From: Carnobacterium divergens DSM 20623
GTDB lineage: Bacteria > Bacillota > Bacilli > Lactobacillales > Carnobacteriaceae
Direction of reading: 5' to 3'
DNA: 64,000 bases
Assembly: GCF_000744255.1 (NCBI RefSeq)
Contig: NZ_JQLO01000001.1
Location: forward strand, 1,178,001-1,242,000
The translations under genes and the position numbers were made by a program. Shown here piece by piece: positions 18,061 to 23,669 of this stretch (the stretch's first letter is position 1; the number at the start of each line of letters is the position of its first letter). The notes under the pieces were generated by a model. The model ran no database searches and had not been told where the DNA came from. It saw only the letters and a list, made by a program, of their open reading frames with translations.

Positions 18061-18238
18061 TTTCACTTCTATTTGTTAGAATTTGTTCATTATTTATTAA
18101 TTTATCTCGATACCGAATCTTTTTTACCTTCTTTTCTAGAAAACAAAAGACAATTATAGTCTACATTTCTTTAAAAGTTTGTTAAACTAGATTCACCTAG
18201 GTTATAGGAAAAATTTTACGATTAAAGGACGTATGATC

Positions 18239-18910
18239 ATGAAAACAATTTTAATTGCCGATGATGATTCAAATATTAATAAAATGGTTCAGCGTTTTCT
18301 TGAATCATTGTCTTATCGGGTAGTGACTGCAACAGATGGAGCTGAGGCTATTGATGCTATCGAAACCCATTCGATTGATTTAGCGATTTTAGATATTATG
18401 ATGCCTCTAAAGAACGGATATGAAGTTTGTCAGGAAATTCGACAACAGTACAGCATTCCGATTATTTTATTGACTGCAAAAGGAGAAATTGTAGATAAAG
18501 AAAAAGGGTTCCAAGCAGGGACTGATGATTACATGACCAAACCTTTTGAATTAAAAGAACTTGAATTTAGAATGAATGCACTGTTTAGACGGTATCAAAT
18601 TCCGAACAACCCGTTAATTACCATTGGAAAACTAACGATTGATCAAAAGAATTATCTTGTGACCCTAGGAAGTAAAGAGCTTTTTCTTCCATTAAAGGAA
18701 TTTGAATTGCTAACGAAACTTGCCAGCTATCCTAAAAAAATTTTTACTCGTGATGAATTGATTGAATCTATTTGGGGTATGGATTACGAAGGAAATGACA
18801 GAACTGTAGACGTTCATATCAAACGATTACGAGAGCATCTGACCAAGGATTCTGGTGTTGCGATTACTACTATTCGCGGGCTTGGCTATCGATTGGAGGA
18901 GCAGGTATGA
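18239..18910 (+). CDS. hssR: HssR-like heme response regulator
   Basis: OmpR-family response regulator (223 aa from this start). The receiver has phospho-acceptor Asp52 (LDIMMP) and GTDDYMTKPFE. The winged-helix effector has RTVDVHIKRLREHL. Several stretches (TKPFE-KEL-FR, GMDYEGNDRTVDVHIKRL) closely match staphylococcal HssR, which activates hrtAB when heme accumulates. ATG 18239 sits 9 nt after AGGA; the ATG two codons earlier is too close to it. It overlaps the kinase gene by 4 nt. Confidence 0.85.
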   Translation: MKTILIADDDSNINKMVQRFLESLSYRVVTATDGAEAIDAIETHSIDLAILDIMMPLKNGYEVCQEIRQQYSIPIILLTAKGEIVDKEKGFQAGTDDYMTKPFELKELEFRMNALFRRYQIPNNPLITIGKLTIDQKNYLVTLGSKELFLPLKEFELLTKLASYPKKIFTRDELIESIWGMDYEGNDRTVDVHIKRLREHLTKDSGVAITTIRGLGYRLEEQV

Positions 18911-20283
18911 AGACCCTCTATCAACGGATCGTAGCCATTACCTTTTTAGTGATGATTGTAAGTATTGGCGTGGCTTTTTTGATTTCAAATGTGTATTATC
19001 AATACCACCTAAAGCCTATCAACGATCAAAAATTAACTTATGTAGCAAAGGATATTCAACAATTTTATAACGAAAATCCGACCTTAAATCAAGAAAGCTA
19101 CTTCAACCACATTAGTCAGCTTGGCTATGAAATTTATCAAGTCAAACCTGATGGCACCGATATCGAATACGGTGATTCGTTCAGAAAGAAAACGTTAGAA
19201 AAAGAAGTCATTCAGTCTGTTTTAGACGGAACCATTTATCATGGGATTGCGAATTTTCCAAAGAGCATTTTTATTACAGGTTTTTTTGACAATGATTTAC
19301 GAAATACTATTGGATTTCCGATAGAAAACAGCGAACAAACCAGCGCTGTTTTTATTCGATCAGACCCTACCAAGCAATTTGGTGAGTTGCGAATTTTCTT
19401 AGTGATGTTGCTTGTATTTAGTGTTTTAATTGGCTTTATTCTTATTTTTTTAAGTAGCTATTTTATTGTTTCTCCTATTAAAAGGTTAACAACTGTTACA
19501 AAAGAAATTACAGACGGCCAATCCGTTGAAATCCATCCCACTAAAAGAAAAGATGAAATTGGTCAATTAACCAATTCCTTTGCAACAATGACAACAGAAT
19601 TGAATAAAGCCGAAAAGGCGCGACAAGAGTTCGTTGCCAATGTCTCCCATGAAATTCAGACTCCTTTGACTTCTATTCAAGGTTTTACTTCGATTTTAAA
19701 AGATGAGAAACTATCTTTAGAACAACGAGAAAATTATTTAACAATAATCGAAACGGAAACTTCACGACTTTCTAGCTTGACGAAACAACTTTTGACACTA
19801 GCTTATTTAGACAATGAAAATCAATTAATACAAAAGCAGTCAGTTGCCATTCATCAACAAATCAAACATTATTTAAAACTCATGCAATGGAAGTGGCAAG
19901 AAAAGGATCTTTACATCGTAACAGAATTGCCCCCTACCTTCGTATTAGGAAATGAGAATTTTTTATATCAAATCTGGCAAAATTTAATAACAAATGCCAT
20001 TCGTTATGCTCCACAAGGCGGCGAAATCACTATTACACTTTCAGATGAAGCTGATCAAACACTTCTAACTATCTACAATAATGGACCAGGAATTGATCCA
20101 GAAAAGTTACCTTATTTATTTGACCGTTTTTACCGCGTAGATGAAAATCGCAGCAATGCTGATGGTGGTAGTGGTCTGGGGTTAGCTATTACAAAAAAAA
20201 TCATTCAGTTGCATGGTGGTACCATTTCAGTTTCTAGTTCCGAAAAAACTGGAACAACCTTTACGATTACTTTTCCAAAATAA
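18907..20283 (+). CDS. hssS: HssS-like heme sensor histidine kinase
   Basis: Membrane sensor kinase (458 aa). TM1 is about residues 8-28, the extracellular sensor about 30-160 and TM2 about 162-188. HAMP, the DHp domain with His248 (NVSHEIQTPL) and the HATPase domain (NLITNAIRYAP, GSGLGLAI) follow. The extracellular segment shares GFFDN and NTIG motifs with staphylococcal HssS, which senses heme at the membrane. It is coupled to hssR by ATGA. The target hrtBA lies about 1.6 kb downstream, beyond an inserted opposite-strand gene. Confidence 0.85.
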   Translation: MKTLYQRIVAITFLVMIVSIGVAFLISNVYYQYHLKPINDQKLTYVAKDIQQFYNENPTLNQESYFNHISQLGYEIYQVKPDGTDIEYGDSFRKKTLEKEVIQSVLDGTIYHGIANFPKSIFITGFFDNDLRNTIGFPIENSEQTSAVFIRSDPTKQFGELRIFLVMLLVFSVLIGFILIFLSSYFIVSPIKRLTTVTKEITDGQSVEIHPTKRKDEIGQLTNSFATMTTELNKAEKARQEFVANVSHEIQTPLTSIQGFTSILKDEKLSLEQRENYLTIIETETSRLSSLTKQLLTLAYLDNENQLIQKQSVAIHQQIKHYLKLMQWKWQEKDLYIVTELPPTFVLGNENFLYQIWQNLITNAIRYAPQGGEITITLSDEADQTLLTIYNNGPGIDPEKLPYLFDRFYRVDENRSNADGGSGLGLAITKKIIQLHGGTISVSSSEKTGTTFTITFPK

Positions 20284-20325
20284 TAATAGGAGGTAGAATC
20301 AGAATAGATTCTACCTCCTATTATT
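20282..20325. terminator. 19-bp perfect inverted repeat, likely bidirectional terminator
   Basis: Arms 20282-20300 and 20307-20325 are perfectly complementary around a 6-nt loop, and each carries an AGGAGG/CCTCCT core. It lies between convergent hssS and the wall hydrolase. Only an interrupted T tract follows on the right (TTATTATTATT), so termination strength is uncertain. Confidence 0.65.
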
Positions 20326-20372
20326 ATTATCTAATATTTCTAATTCTAAAGAAAAATTAACTTATTGTTTTA

Positions 20373-21650
20373 TTACTTTGCTATAAGCTTAATCTTTATT
20401 GCTTGAATAGCTAGTTTCTGTCCAGTTGTTCCTGCTACAGCTCCATTTTCCACCCATGCCATCCAACCCTTTTCTGCTACATGAACTTGATATGAAATAT
20501 TGTATTGTTTCTCTAATCCATTTTTTAAAGAAATTTTTACCGCTTGTAATGATAATTGTTTTCCAACTGTTCCTCCAACGTTTTCAATCCAACCTTTTTC
20601 AGCTACATGGGCATCAATTTTAACATTTTCTTTTTTACCATCCACATATACTTCGATACACTGCCCTTCAATACTTAAGCCCGTTGTACCCGCCATTTGA
20701 TTATTTGTAACATATCCTAACCATCCTTCTTTAGCTAAATGCATCCGATAAGCTAGACCTTTTGCTACAGGTTTAGATGTTCCTTGAACAATTGGCTTAC
20801 GAACTAACTTCATTTTAATTGCTTGAAGACTTTTTTTCTGACCTGTTGTCCCTGCTGTTTGCCCATCTTTCACCCAGCTTAACCATCCATTTTCAGCAAC
20901 ATGGGCTTGATATTCTAAGTTATAATAATTTACCGCATCTCCTGTTAATCTAGCTTGAATGGCTTCTACTGCCTTAGATTGTCCCGTCGTTCCTGCTACC
21001 TGACCACTCTTAACCCAAGGCATCCAACCGATGGTTGAAACATGAGCCCGATATTCTACTGATCCATTACTAAGTCTCCCAATAATTCTAATGGCTTCTA
21101 CTGGCAATTTGTACCCTGTTGATCCTGAAAGCGCACCATCTTTTACATTGTTCATCCATCCCACTTTACTCACGTGTGTTTCATAATTAATTCCTTTTGA
21201 AATAGCTTGAGCTGGATTTTTTGGCGGTAATTTTGGCGCTTCTGGTACATTTGGTAAATCTTTAAAGTGAATGTATCCATCAACAGCACCTGCATTGATC
21301 CATCTGTTATTATAATTTCCTGAATAGGCTGGGTTATTATACTCTTCAATTAAAACCAATCCATTTTTCACATCCGCTACCCACGCAACGTGAAAACCAG
21401 CATTCCACCATGCAACTGAACCAATTGTTGGATTTTTATCTACTTGATATCCTAAATTTTGTGCATTTTGTCCCCATACATTTGCATTCCAATTACTAGG
21501 TGGTCTAGTAATATTAAATTTATTTACTACACTCAAACGATTTGCAACAAATGATGTACACTCCCTTGTATACATCCCCCAAGAATCTACTGCTGCATCC
21601 AGGGGTAAATTTTTCCACTTCACCGGGTAATCATCACCAATTAATACCAT
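20373..21650 (-). CDS. CHAP-domain peptidoglycan hydrolase with six ChW repeats, no signal peptide
   Basis: A 425-residue lysin-like protein. An N-terminal CHAP cysteine amidase/endopeptidase domain (about 5-130) has Cys31 in RECTSF and His87 in GFHVAWVA. A Pro-rich linker (about 134-150) leads to six ChW-type repeats (about 154-193, 199-236, 246-283, 299-335, 344-376, 385-424), each built on GW...G...GTTGQ...AI. ChW repeats bind cell wall or secreted partners. There is no Sec signal, so release would need lysis, a holin or another route. Neighbours are hssRS and hrtBA, not phage genes. A Carnobacterium-type bacteriocin/lysin role is possible but unproven. Confidence 0.88.
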   Translation of the reverse strand: MVLIGDDYPVKWKNLPLDAAVDSWGMYTRECTSFVANRLSVVNKFNITRPPSNWNANVWGQNAQNLGYQVDKNPTIGSVAWWNAGFHVAWVADVKNGLVLIEEYNNPAYSGNYNNRWINAGAVDGYIHFKDLPNVPEAPKLPPKNPAQAISKGINYETHVSKVGWMNNVKDGALSGSTGYKLPVEAIRIIGRLSNGSVEYRAHVSTIGWMPWVKSGQVAGTTGQSKAVEAIQARLTGDAVNYYNLEYQAHVAENGWLSWVKDGQTAGTTGQKKSLQAIKMKLVRKPIVQGTSKPVAKGLAYRMHLAKEGWLGYVTNNQMAGTTGLSIEGQCIEVYVDGKKENVKIDAHVAEKGWIENVGGTVGKQLSLQAVKISLKNGLEKQYNISYQVHVAEKGWMAWVENGAVAGTTGQKLAIQAIKIKLIAK

Positions 21651-21843
21651 AAAAAAACCTTCTCTCTTCTTTTTTCCTAATAATTATTAATGAGATCTCA
21701 ATTTAAAATAATTTTTTATTAGGTACAATTATTGTATTACATAAAAATAACATCTATCTTTTTATATCCAATCAAAATCCAGTCACGATTCTTTCAAAAA
21801 TCTTTACCAAAGAAAGTGTTAGTTGTTTCTTTTGTAATTTCCC

Positions 21844-21876
21844 GTTCATCTCCAGTTCATATAGCTAGGCTATGAT
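21844..21876 (+). promoter_or_regulatory. hrtBA promoter with HssR-type direct repeat
   Basis: GTTCAT at 21844-21849 is repeated at 21855-21860 (11-bp period, one helical turn). The -10 TATGAT is at 21871-21876, and the second repeat reaches into the -35 region. Staphylococcal HssR binds tandem GTTCAT-type repeats ahead of hrtAB, so this is the expected operator. Confidence 0.78.
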
Positions 21877-21906
21877 AGAACTATCAACAAGAAGGAGTGA
21901 GGAAAA

Positions 21907-22995
21907 ATGTTTTTAGCATGGCGTGAAATAAAACATACAAAATTAAGATATAGCTTAATCGCTTTGATTATGATCATGATTATCTGGTTAGTACTATTCG
22001 TAACAGGTTTAGCTAATGGATTAGCAAGTGACAACGCTTCAGCGATTAAGGAAAGTGCAGCTTCTTATTTTTTAATTGAAAAAGATTCAGATAATCGTTT
22101 CGCACGTTCGACTGTTACTGAAAAACAAGTGAGTGACGTTGAAAAAGATCTTGGAAAAAAAGCTACTGGACTTCGTGTTCAAATGAGTACCGTTAGTACG
22201 AAAAAAGATACAAATAAGACGGACGTCTCTTATTTTTCATTTGATTCAACTAGTTTCTTAAAGCCTGAATTAACAGACGGTCATTTGGGAAAAAGTGGAA
22301 GTAACGAAGTCGTTGCAGATCAAAAATTGAAAAATCAAGGCTACTCTCTTGGATCTACGATTAAAGACGCGGCAACAAATCAGACCTTTAAAATTACAGG
22401 ATTTACTAAAAAACAAACTTACAGTCATACTGGTGTAGTTTTCCTAACTCCTGTTCAATGGAAAGAAGTTCAAGTACCTCAAAAAGCAGCTGACAACACG
22501 TATAATGCAATTGCATTAGATATCACTGAGGATAAAGCAACGACTTTAAATTATTCGGATTTAGTCACAGCCAGTAAAAACGACATCGTAACGAATATTC
22601 CTGGTTATTCAGAGGAACAAGGTTCGTTAACCATGATGATCACTTTCTTATATATCATTGCAGCCTTTGTCCTAACTGTTTTCTTCTATGTTATTACAAT
22701 TCAAAAAGTTGATCAATTTGGAATGTTGAAAGCCATTGGTGCTAAAACAAGTTACTTGGCTAAAAGTTTGCTCTCACAAATTGCTACGCTTTCCGTTATA
22801 AGCCTTTTAATTGGAAATCTTTTAACTTATGGTGTTGCCGCATTACTACCTGAAAGTATGCCTTTTAATTTAACACCTATTACAGCACTGGCTTCTTCAT
22901 TACTATTTTTAGCAGTCGCATTAATTGGCTCGTTATTGTCACTGTACCGCGTTGCTAAAGTAGATGCCATTGAAGCGATTGGAGGGAATAACTAA
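21907..22995 (+). CDS. hrtB: HrtB-like heme efflux ABC transporter permease
   Basis: FtsX/MacB-type permease (362 aa). TM1 is about residues 14-37, with a large extracytoplasmic domain (about 40-235). Three C-terminal helices lie at about 240-262, 290-312 and 325-350. The start MFLAWREIKHTKLRYSL matches HrtB proteins, which extract heme from the membrane. GAAGGAG precedes the ATG. The stop overlaps the hrtA start by one base. Confidence 0.85.
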   Translation: MFLAWREIKHTKLRYSLIALIMIMIIWLVLFVTGLANGLASDNASAIKESAASYFLIEKDSDNRFARSTVTEKQVSDVEKDLGKKATGLRVQMSTVSTKKDTNKTDVSYFSFDSTSFLKPELTDGHLGKSGSNEVVADQKLKNQGYSLGSTIKDAATNQTFKITGFTKKQTYSHTGVVFLTPVQWKEVQVPQKAADNTYNAIALDITEDKATTLNYSDLVTASKNDIVTNIPGYSEEQGSLTMMITFLYIIAAFVLTVFFYVITIQKVDQFGMLKAIGAKTSYLAKSLLSQIATLSVISLLIGNLLTYGVAALLPESMPFNLTPITALASSLLFLAVALIGSLLSLYRVAKVDAIEAIGGNN

Positions 22996-23669
22996 TGACA
23001 GATAAATTAGTCTTAAATCAAATTTCAAAATATTATCAAGATGGTTTAGAACAAATTGAAGTGTTAAAAAACCTTTCGTTAACGGTAAAAGAAGGAGAAT
23101 TTGTCGCGATTGTCGGTCCTAGTGGCGCTGGTAAAAGTACGTTCCTTTCTATTGCTGGAGCATTACTATCTCCTAGTGAAGGAGAAGTAAGAATCGGCAA
23201 TGTTTCCTTGAATAGTTTAAACCAAAAACAATGGACCAACTTACGTCTTAATTCAATCGGCTTTATTTTTCAAGGTGGCAATTTGATTCCATATTTAACC
23301 GTTTTGGATCAATTATTATTGCTTCCAAAATTAAGTGGATCAAAGGATGAACATAAACAACGTGCACTCGATTTATTAACCGATTTAGGTCTAAAACATC
23401 GCCTAAATCAATATCCAGATAAACTATCTGGTGGCGAAAAACAACGTGTAGCAATTGCTCGCGCTTTAATGAATGATCCAGATATTATTTTAGCAGATGA
23501 ACCAACTGCAAGTTTAGACTCTCAAAGAGGCTATCAAGTAGTGGAAATGATTGCTAAAGAGGTTCATAAAAATAATAAAGCCGCTGTGATGGTGACCCAT
23601 GATGAACGTGTTTTAGAATTAGTCGATCGCGTTCTGCGCATTGAAGATGGACAACTGTATCCTGTTTAA
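22995..23669 (+). CDS. hrtA: HrtA-like heme efflux ABC transporter ATPase
   Basis: ATPase of the HrtBA exporter (224 aa). It has Walker [10 protein letters not shown] at 41-49, the signature [15 protein letters not shown] and Walker [13 protein letters not shown], with H-loop MVTHD. Co-transcribed with hrtB (TAATG junction). By homology it protects against heme toxicity; lactic acid bacteria generally scavenge rather than make heme. Confidence 0.87.

Follow-up and report, generated by a model that had tools for sequence, protein, structure and literature searches.

What route could take a wall-cutting enzyme without a leader to its target, and could retention of the enzyme inside the cell replace an immunity protein? 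Both questions are raised by a gene at positions 20373-21650 of the window, that is, of the whole 64,000-nucleotide stretch of Carnobacterium divergens DSM 20623 DNA that was analysed. The gene encodes a CHAP hydrolase followed by wall-binding repeats. It lies on the minus strand between a two-component pair (18233-20283) and a permease/ATPase pair (21907-23669), both on the plus strand.

The protein has an intact CHAP active site and ChW repeats

The gene and the elements at its 5′ end are the following.

20373..21650, minus strand: gene for a wall hydrolase of 425 aa (CHAP-ChW, leaderless), ATG start (ORF call and Pfam)
21252..21650, minus strand: CHAP region, residues 1-133, Pfam core 22-105 (Pfam and alignments)
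21558-21560 and 21390-21392, minus strand: codons of Cys31 and His87, respectively
20376..21203, minus strand: ChW repeat region, six repeats counted by eye, five significant in Pfam
21658..21667, minus strand: Shine-Dalgarno-like AGAGAGAAGG, purine-rich, 7 nt 5′ of the ATG (by eye)
21670..21700, minus strand: 5′ motif TGAGATCTCAYTN6TATTAGGAAAAAA, common to the leaderless gene of genome G338

The product of 20373-21650 belongs to the CHAP family PF05257, a fold with a Cys and a His, which Pfam matches at residues 22-105 with an E-value of 6.7e-12. The ChW family (PF07538, E 2.3e-67) is matched over five stretches, each of them significant; a further repeat, fifth in order and divergent, brings the total by eye to six, and Pfam scores six ChW repeats in the full-length homologue from Enterococcus ureasiticus. 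An earlier note, made from the DNA letters, had described a CHAP domain with six ChW repeats and intact catalytic residues, and both points hold. Cys31, His87, Glu102 and Glu103 are invariant in 8/8 aligned homologues. Three solved CHAP proteins could be aligned as well: His87 lies opposite a His each time, and Cys31 lies opposite a Cys of 5T1Q in the sole one of these alignments that spans it. To judge by these residues, the site does not look dead. A model of the CHAP domain by itself (AF2; pTM 0.71, pLDDT 73.7) matched six chains from three entries in Foldseek at E ≤ 0.001 (2LRJ, 5T1Q and 9EUM), and its best PDB matches were CHAP-containing entries with modest TM-scores to the query of 0.52-0.58. 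The full-length AlphaFold model was weaker in the CHAP part (mean pLDDT 68.1, with residues 1-51 below 50).

The gene starts without a Sec leader

The reading frame is closed 14 codons above the residues IGDDYP, and reading of the three upstream frames found no hydrophobic leader behind any start codon, which rules out a leader that was missed or frameshifted. The absence of a signal peptide, as first noticed, is therefore real. The window protein begins MVLIGDDYP, as against ...NADAAVIGDDYP in the leader-bearing E. ureasiticus protein (454 aa). In each of the leaderless genes described below, a stop codon closes the frame 10-33 codons above the start of CHAP, and a purine-rich, Shine-Dalgarno-like stretch can be recognized by eye.

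When up to three mismatches were tolerated, the 5′ motif was found in 2/395 genomes of the order, the window's own and G338, as one exact copy each. The wider upstream stretches of these two genes align with a score of 88, reached by 0/300 shuffles. No upstream similarity was detected between the window gene and the three genes of the LevR-type site (see below) that were compared with it, L104, L103 and L034, for which the score was reached by 12, 58 and 128 of 200 shuffles. A palindrome common to the window and G338 genes, TGAGATCTCA at 21691-21700 in the 5′ region, is a possible operator. A scan for -35/-10 elements returned six promoter-like sites against a shuffle mean of 7.9, no excess over chance. 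The regions 5′ of the window gene and of the G338 gene, searched with the SOS-type and competence consensus strings, contained neither an SOS-type box at the thresholds used nor a TACGAATA-like competence cin-box within one mismatch.

The gene is probably a lone insertion beside putative heme-stress genes

The locus is laid out as follows.

18233..18910, plus strand: response regulator, putative hssR (Pfam)
18907..20283, plus strand: sensor kinase, putative hssS (Pfam)
20279..20328, no strand assigned: perfect hairpin of 22 bp where the kinase and CHAP genes converge
20285..21825, no strand assigned: inserted segment of 1.54 kb, absent from sister genome G002 (genome comparison)
21844..21860, plus strand: direct repeat resembling an HssR box, 5′ of the permease gene and outside the insert (motif search)
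21907..22995, plus strand: FtsX/MacB-type permease, putative hrtB (Pfam)
22995..23669, plus strand: ABC ATPase, putative hrtA (Pfam)

The sister genome is 96.2% identical to the window up to position 20284 and 97.6% identical from 21826 on; in it the two blocks are separated by 31 bp, which belong to a terminator-like hairpin. In a more distant congener (G001) the permease gene likewise stands close after the kinase gene, and 0/17 other genomes of the family gave a CHAP match at 1e-15. Gain of a lone gene is the simplest account. Clear of the CHAP gene, the insert has a single other open reading frame of at least 30 aa, one of 47 codons across the insert edge, and there is no room for an integrase or a transposase. 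The hairpin at 20279-20328 has a folding energy of about -31 kcal/mol on either strand and probably acts as a two-way terminator; it was not listed by the terminator scan. No known RNA element was found within 20200-22000 at gathering score.

Several statements of the earlier note can be judged at this locus. Its suggestion of a cargo gene at an insertion site agrees with the empty site in G002 and with comparable insertions at two other loci in Enterococcus, and the comparison of relatives does not reveal a conserved, syntenic gene. That no phage or holin genes lie nearby was likewise found for the ten flanking open reading frames in Pfam. Metabolic, transport, regulator, MutS or LtrA families account for nine of them and one has no match; phage and holin families are absent from the results. 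The naming of the flanks as hssRS and hrtBA fared less evenly. The position on the opposite strand and the types of the two pairs stand, and the repeat at 21844-21860, found once in the window with 0.03 expected using what we take to be the HssR box motif, supports the heme-stress label; the Hss/Hrt identity itself is unproven, because neither pair bears such a name among the NCBIfam matches listed.

The CHAP gene is tied to heme by its position and by the neighbouring HssR-like box, and by nothing else. A leaderless lysin that adjoins a putative heme-stress locus and is divergent from a permease gene with such a box could be a suicide or abortive enzyme, turned from within on the wall of its maker once the membrane gives way, for example under heme stress or infection. 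However, the same repeat precedes the permease gene in the insert-free G002 (the G001 copy has a single mismatch), no defence family was matched in PADLOC at E 0.1, and no holin occurs among the scanned neighbours. Moreover, leaderless relatives are found at other loci, so the position beside the putative heme-stress genes may be due to chance. We regard a suicide lysin as rather improbable.

Loss of the leader looks old and maintained

With the CHAP domain as query, matches were obtained in 50/395 genomes of the order at 1e-15 and in 19/398 genomes of the class at 1e-20 (the window's own genome included in both), as well as in 7/105 genomes of the family of G039 at 1e-20, each species being represented by one genome. 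A search of contigs gave three named loci, including E. plantarum (L034) and E. ureasiticus (L035). The region upstream of CHAP was read at 49 loci, a subset of all matches in which a few genomes are represented twice. A hydrophobic leader-like stretch, defined as a highest 12-residue mean hydropathy of at least 1.9 (a hydropathy criterion rather than a trained predictor), was present at 42 of them; one locus was broken and six were leaderless, namely the window gene and those of five Enterococcus genomes (G338, G241, G346, G039 and G342). One of these genomes, G342, carries a leader-bearing (L107) and a leaderless (L109) CHAP protein together.

In a tree of 39 CHAP domains, rooted at the midpoint for drawing only, a clade with support 97/89 unites the leaderless CHAPs of the window, G338, G346, G241 and G039, with leader-bearing proteins around it. 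The sixth, L109, has a long branch outside this clade, and its leader may have been lost separately. The tree requires two changes in leader state, and a single change suffices in 9% of 200 bootstrap trees; one or two losses would fit. Within the five-gene clade dN/dS was 0.045-0.091 in 7/10 pairs, a sign of strong purifying selection, dS being saturated in the remaining three; the ratios involving the window protein are rough because dS is high (1.6-2.6) in its three usable pairs. Given a supported clade and low dN/dS, the loss of the leader seems old and maintained, as far as a small sample of six leaderless genes can indicate.

Decay is found among the relatives: in G251 the leader-bearing L110 and L108 look damaged, one of them split over two frames and the other short, with CTP replacing CTS at the active-site stretch. 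That the window gene is itself a decaying gene which has lost its leader is nevertheless highly improbable, since the dN/dS values speak against a pseudogene and five relatives have the same design.

Leaderless genes occupy three sites and differ in their wall-binding modules

The six leaderless genes occupy three intergenic sites, and the five for which both flanks are visible are lone genes; the G039 gene ends at a contig end, leaving one flank in view. At the G338 site the leaderless gene lies within 2.0 kb, as against 46 bp in G423. The third site, in Enterococcus, is located between two genes that were identified by eye, one for a LevR-type regulator and one of the ABC-F type; 22 genomes could be compared there. 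A leaderless CHAP gene is present in four of them (G039, G241, G342 and G346), the two genes stand side by side in 16, G362 has other genes there, and G378 is not syntenic. The G241 insert measures ~1.65 kb compared with a spacer of 55-65 bp in 7/7 CHAP-less congeners compared (of 16 such), and across these seven the limits of the insert agree within about 5 bp; the replaced spacer has no evident shared hairpin. Between the CHAP and ABC-F genes there is no open reading frame of at least 40 aa in G342 and G346, and none of at least 100 aa in G241, where 114 bp remain. The leaderless gene of G342 is also alone between the LevR and ABC-F genes. No immunity gene lies beside the leaderless gene at any of the five loci visible on both flanks.

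These neighbourhoods bear on the main rival explanation, that the protein is an ordinary bacteriolysin or autolysin exported by living cells along some route independent of a cleavable leader. A missing Sec leader need not exclude live export, because BacL1 of the Bac41 system, which may be leaderless, is described as secreted in PMC9951850; there the primer sequence after the cloning site is ATGAATTACAGTCAAAAAGCAATCG, giving a start MNYSQKAI that is not leader-like, if it is also the native start. Against such a route, no transporter gene is present inside the three delimited inserts, and the leaderless genes lie in three different neighbourhoods. We consider live export unlikely.

The wall-binding module is ChW in the window protein, DUF5776 in G338, G241 and G039, and GW in G346. 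The window CHAP is 80-86% identical to four of the leaderless enterococcal proteins, all of them without ChW, and 51% identical to the fifth, while the proteins of G342 and G346, encoded at the same site, are 82.6% identical in the GW part and 51.5% in CHAP. Between the window protein and the leader-bearing E. ureasiticus protein, identity is 68% in the ChW region and 63% in CHAP. To judge by these identities, wall-binding parts (ChW, GW, DUF5776) have been swapped.

Searches for a phage source

Leaderless modular lysins are typical of phages, and the protein has weak matches to PHROG endolysins (E 1e-9 and 4e-6), as would be expected of a domesticated phage endolysin. However, the nine phage records matched are all below 60% identity; six are annotated as tail or tape-measure proteins, in two the match begins only at residue 137 or 197, and the remaining one bears a leader. 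Four relatives were found in viral contigs, the best of them leader-bearing, and a search of viral contigs with a DNA pattern of the five-gene clade's start gave no match. The clade lies, moreover, among leader-bearing proteins. Neither a phage or holin gene among the ten flanking open reading frames nor a leaderless phage relative in these searches was found. A phage origin was rejected on the phage-record, viral-contig and start-pattern searches, and a domesticated endolysin is accordingly very improbable.

Two of the records deserve separate mention. L033 (OR846602.1), named Enterococcus phage Efs 1-1-1, reads like a bacterial chromosome, with a mannose-type PTS operon and a LevR-type regulator beside a leader-bearing CHAP gene (names by eye). 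In the viral contig L037 (1-876 and 2286-3416), a CHAP protein with a leader and choline-binding repeats is encoded not far from a gene that by eye resembles an integrase, perhaps at a prophage edge.

A lysin that may be held inside and freed by lysis

The preferred reading is that of an altruistic lysin or a lysis-released bacteriocin. In its full form, to which we give about an even chance on the sequence comparisons, the window protein would be a wall-targeted lysin that stays in the cytoplasm and is freed by lysis, in a lineage that lost its leader long ago. The protein would collect in the cytoplasm, harmless to its maker, until some cells lyse through autolysis, phage or stress. Once freed, the enzyme would cut the walls of cells recognized by its ChW repeats. 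A point against this reading is that the wall of the maker itself may be a target. A cytoplasmic, wall-cutting enzyme released in this manner would act as a posthumous, horizontally traded bacteriolysin. The combination of a leaderless enzyme with no neighbouring immunity gene is consistent with an enzyme that its living maker does not export.

Tentatively, this reading can be extended to the whole set. The leaderless genes could be roving one-gene weapons: CHAP cassettes of the CbpD/ScrM type that move between intergenic sites of enterococci and their relatives, swap wall-binding ends to retarget and act after the death of the cell. Such cassettes could do without an immunity gene because the living maker would never export the enzyme. 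Loss of an export signal would be a kept, selected trait within a family known for secreted enzymes. The six natural proteins, with three kinds of repeat, should also be useful for finding which walls are bound by ChW, GW and DUF5776. Among the matches listed from open-licence papers, searched by titles and the starts of abstracts, there was no published account of a leaderless lysin set.

Comparison with known systems

The window CHAP is of the same type as that of CbpD and ScrM. Its match to the ScrM model NF052572 begins at model position 40, with an E-value of 2.6e-42 and a score of 145 bits where the cut-off is 400. It is 53% identical to the CHAP of L090, which is the same gene as L009 and whose product, a protein with matches to choline-binding families, is taken to be CbpD-like. 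By sequence, the window CHAP would thus fall in the CbpD/ScrM group, below the ScrM equivalog cut-off. According to PMC13192262, streptococcal CbpD is secreted and kills non-competent relatives, competent cells being protected by ComM, whereas ScrM is autolytic and goes with ScrI; fratricide is presented there as demonstrated for CbpD and as not shown for ScrM. The window protein differs in lacking their Sec leader and in having ChW instead of SH3b or choline-binding repeats, and its gene has neither a neighbouring immunity gene nor an upstream cin-box within one mismatch.

The endolysins of Gram-positive phages are also modular and leaderless, with a catalytic and a wall-binding domain. They are phage-borne, whereas the window gene lies outside any phage, with no holin among the neighbours scanned.

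Class III bacteriolysins (BacL1/BacA of Bac41, enterolysin A) likewise join a wall hydrolase to repeated wall-binding domains, a likeness of design. In PMC9951850 the Bac41 operon comprises six ORFs, one partner protein included; Bac41 has also been linked to immunity factors. The window, in contrast, has a lone CHAP gene.

The full domain order of the window protein recurs in the E. ureasiticus protein L035. The latter has a Sec-type leader, unlike the window protein, and four of the five enterococcal leaderless proteins have a CHAP closer to the window CHAP than its own.
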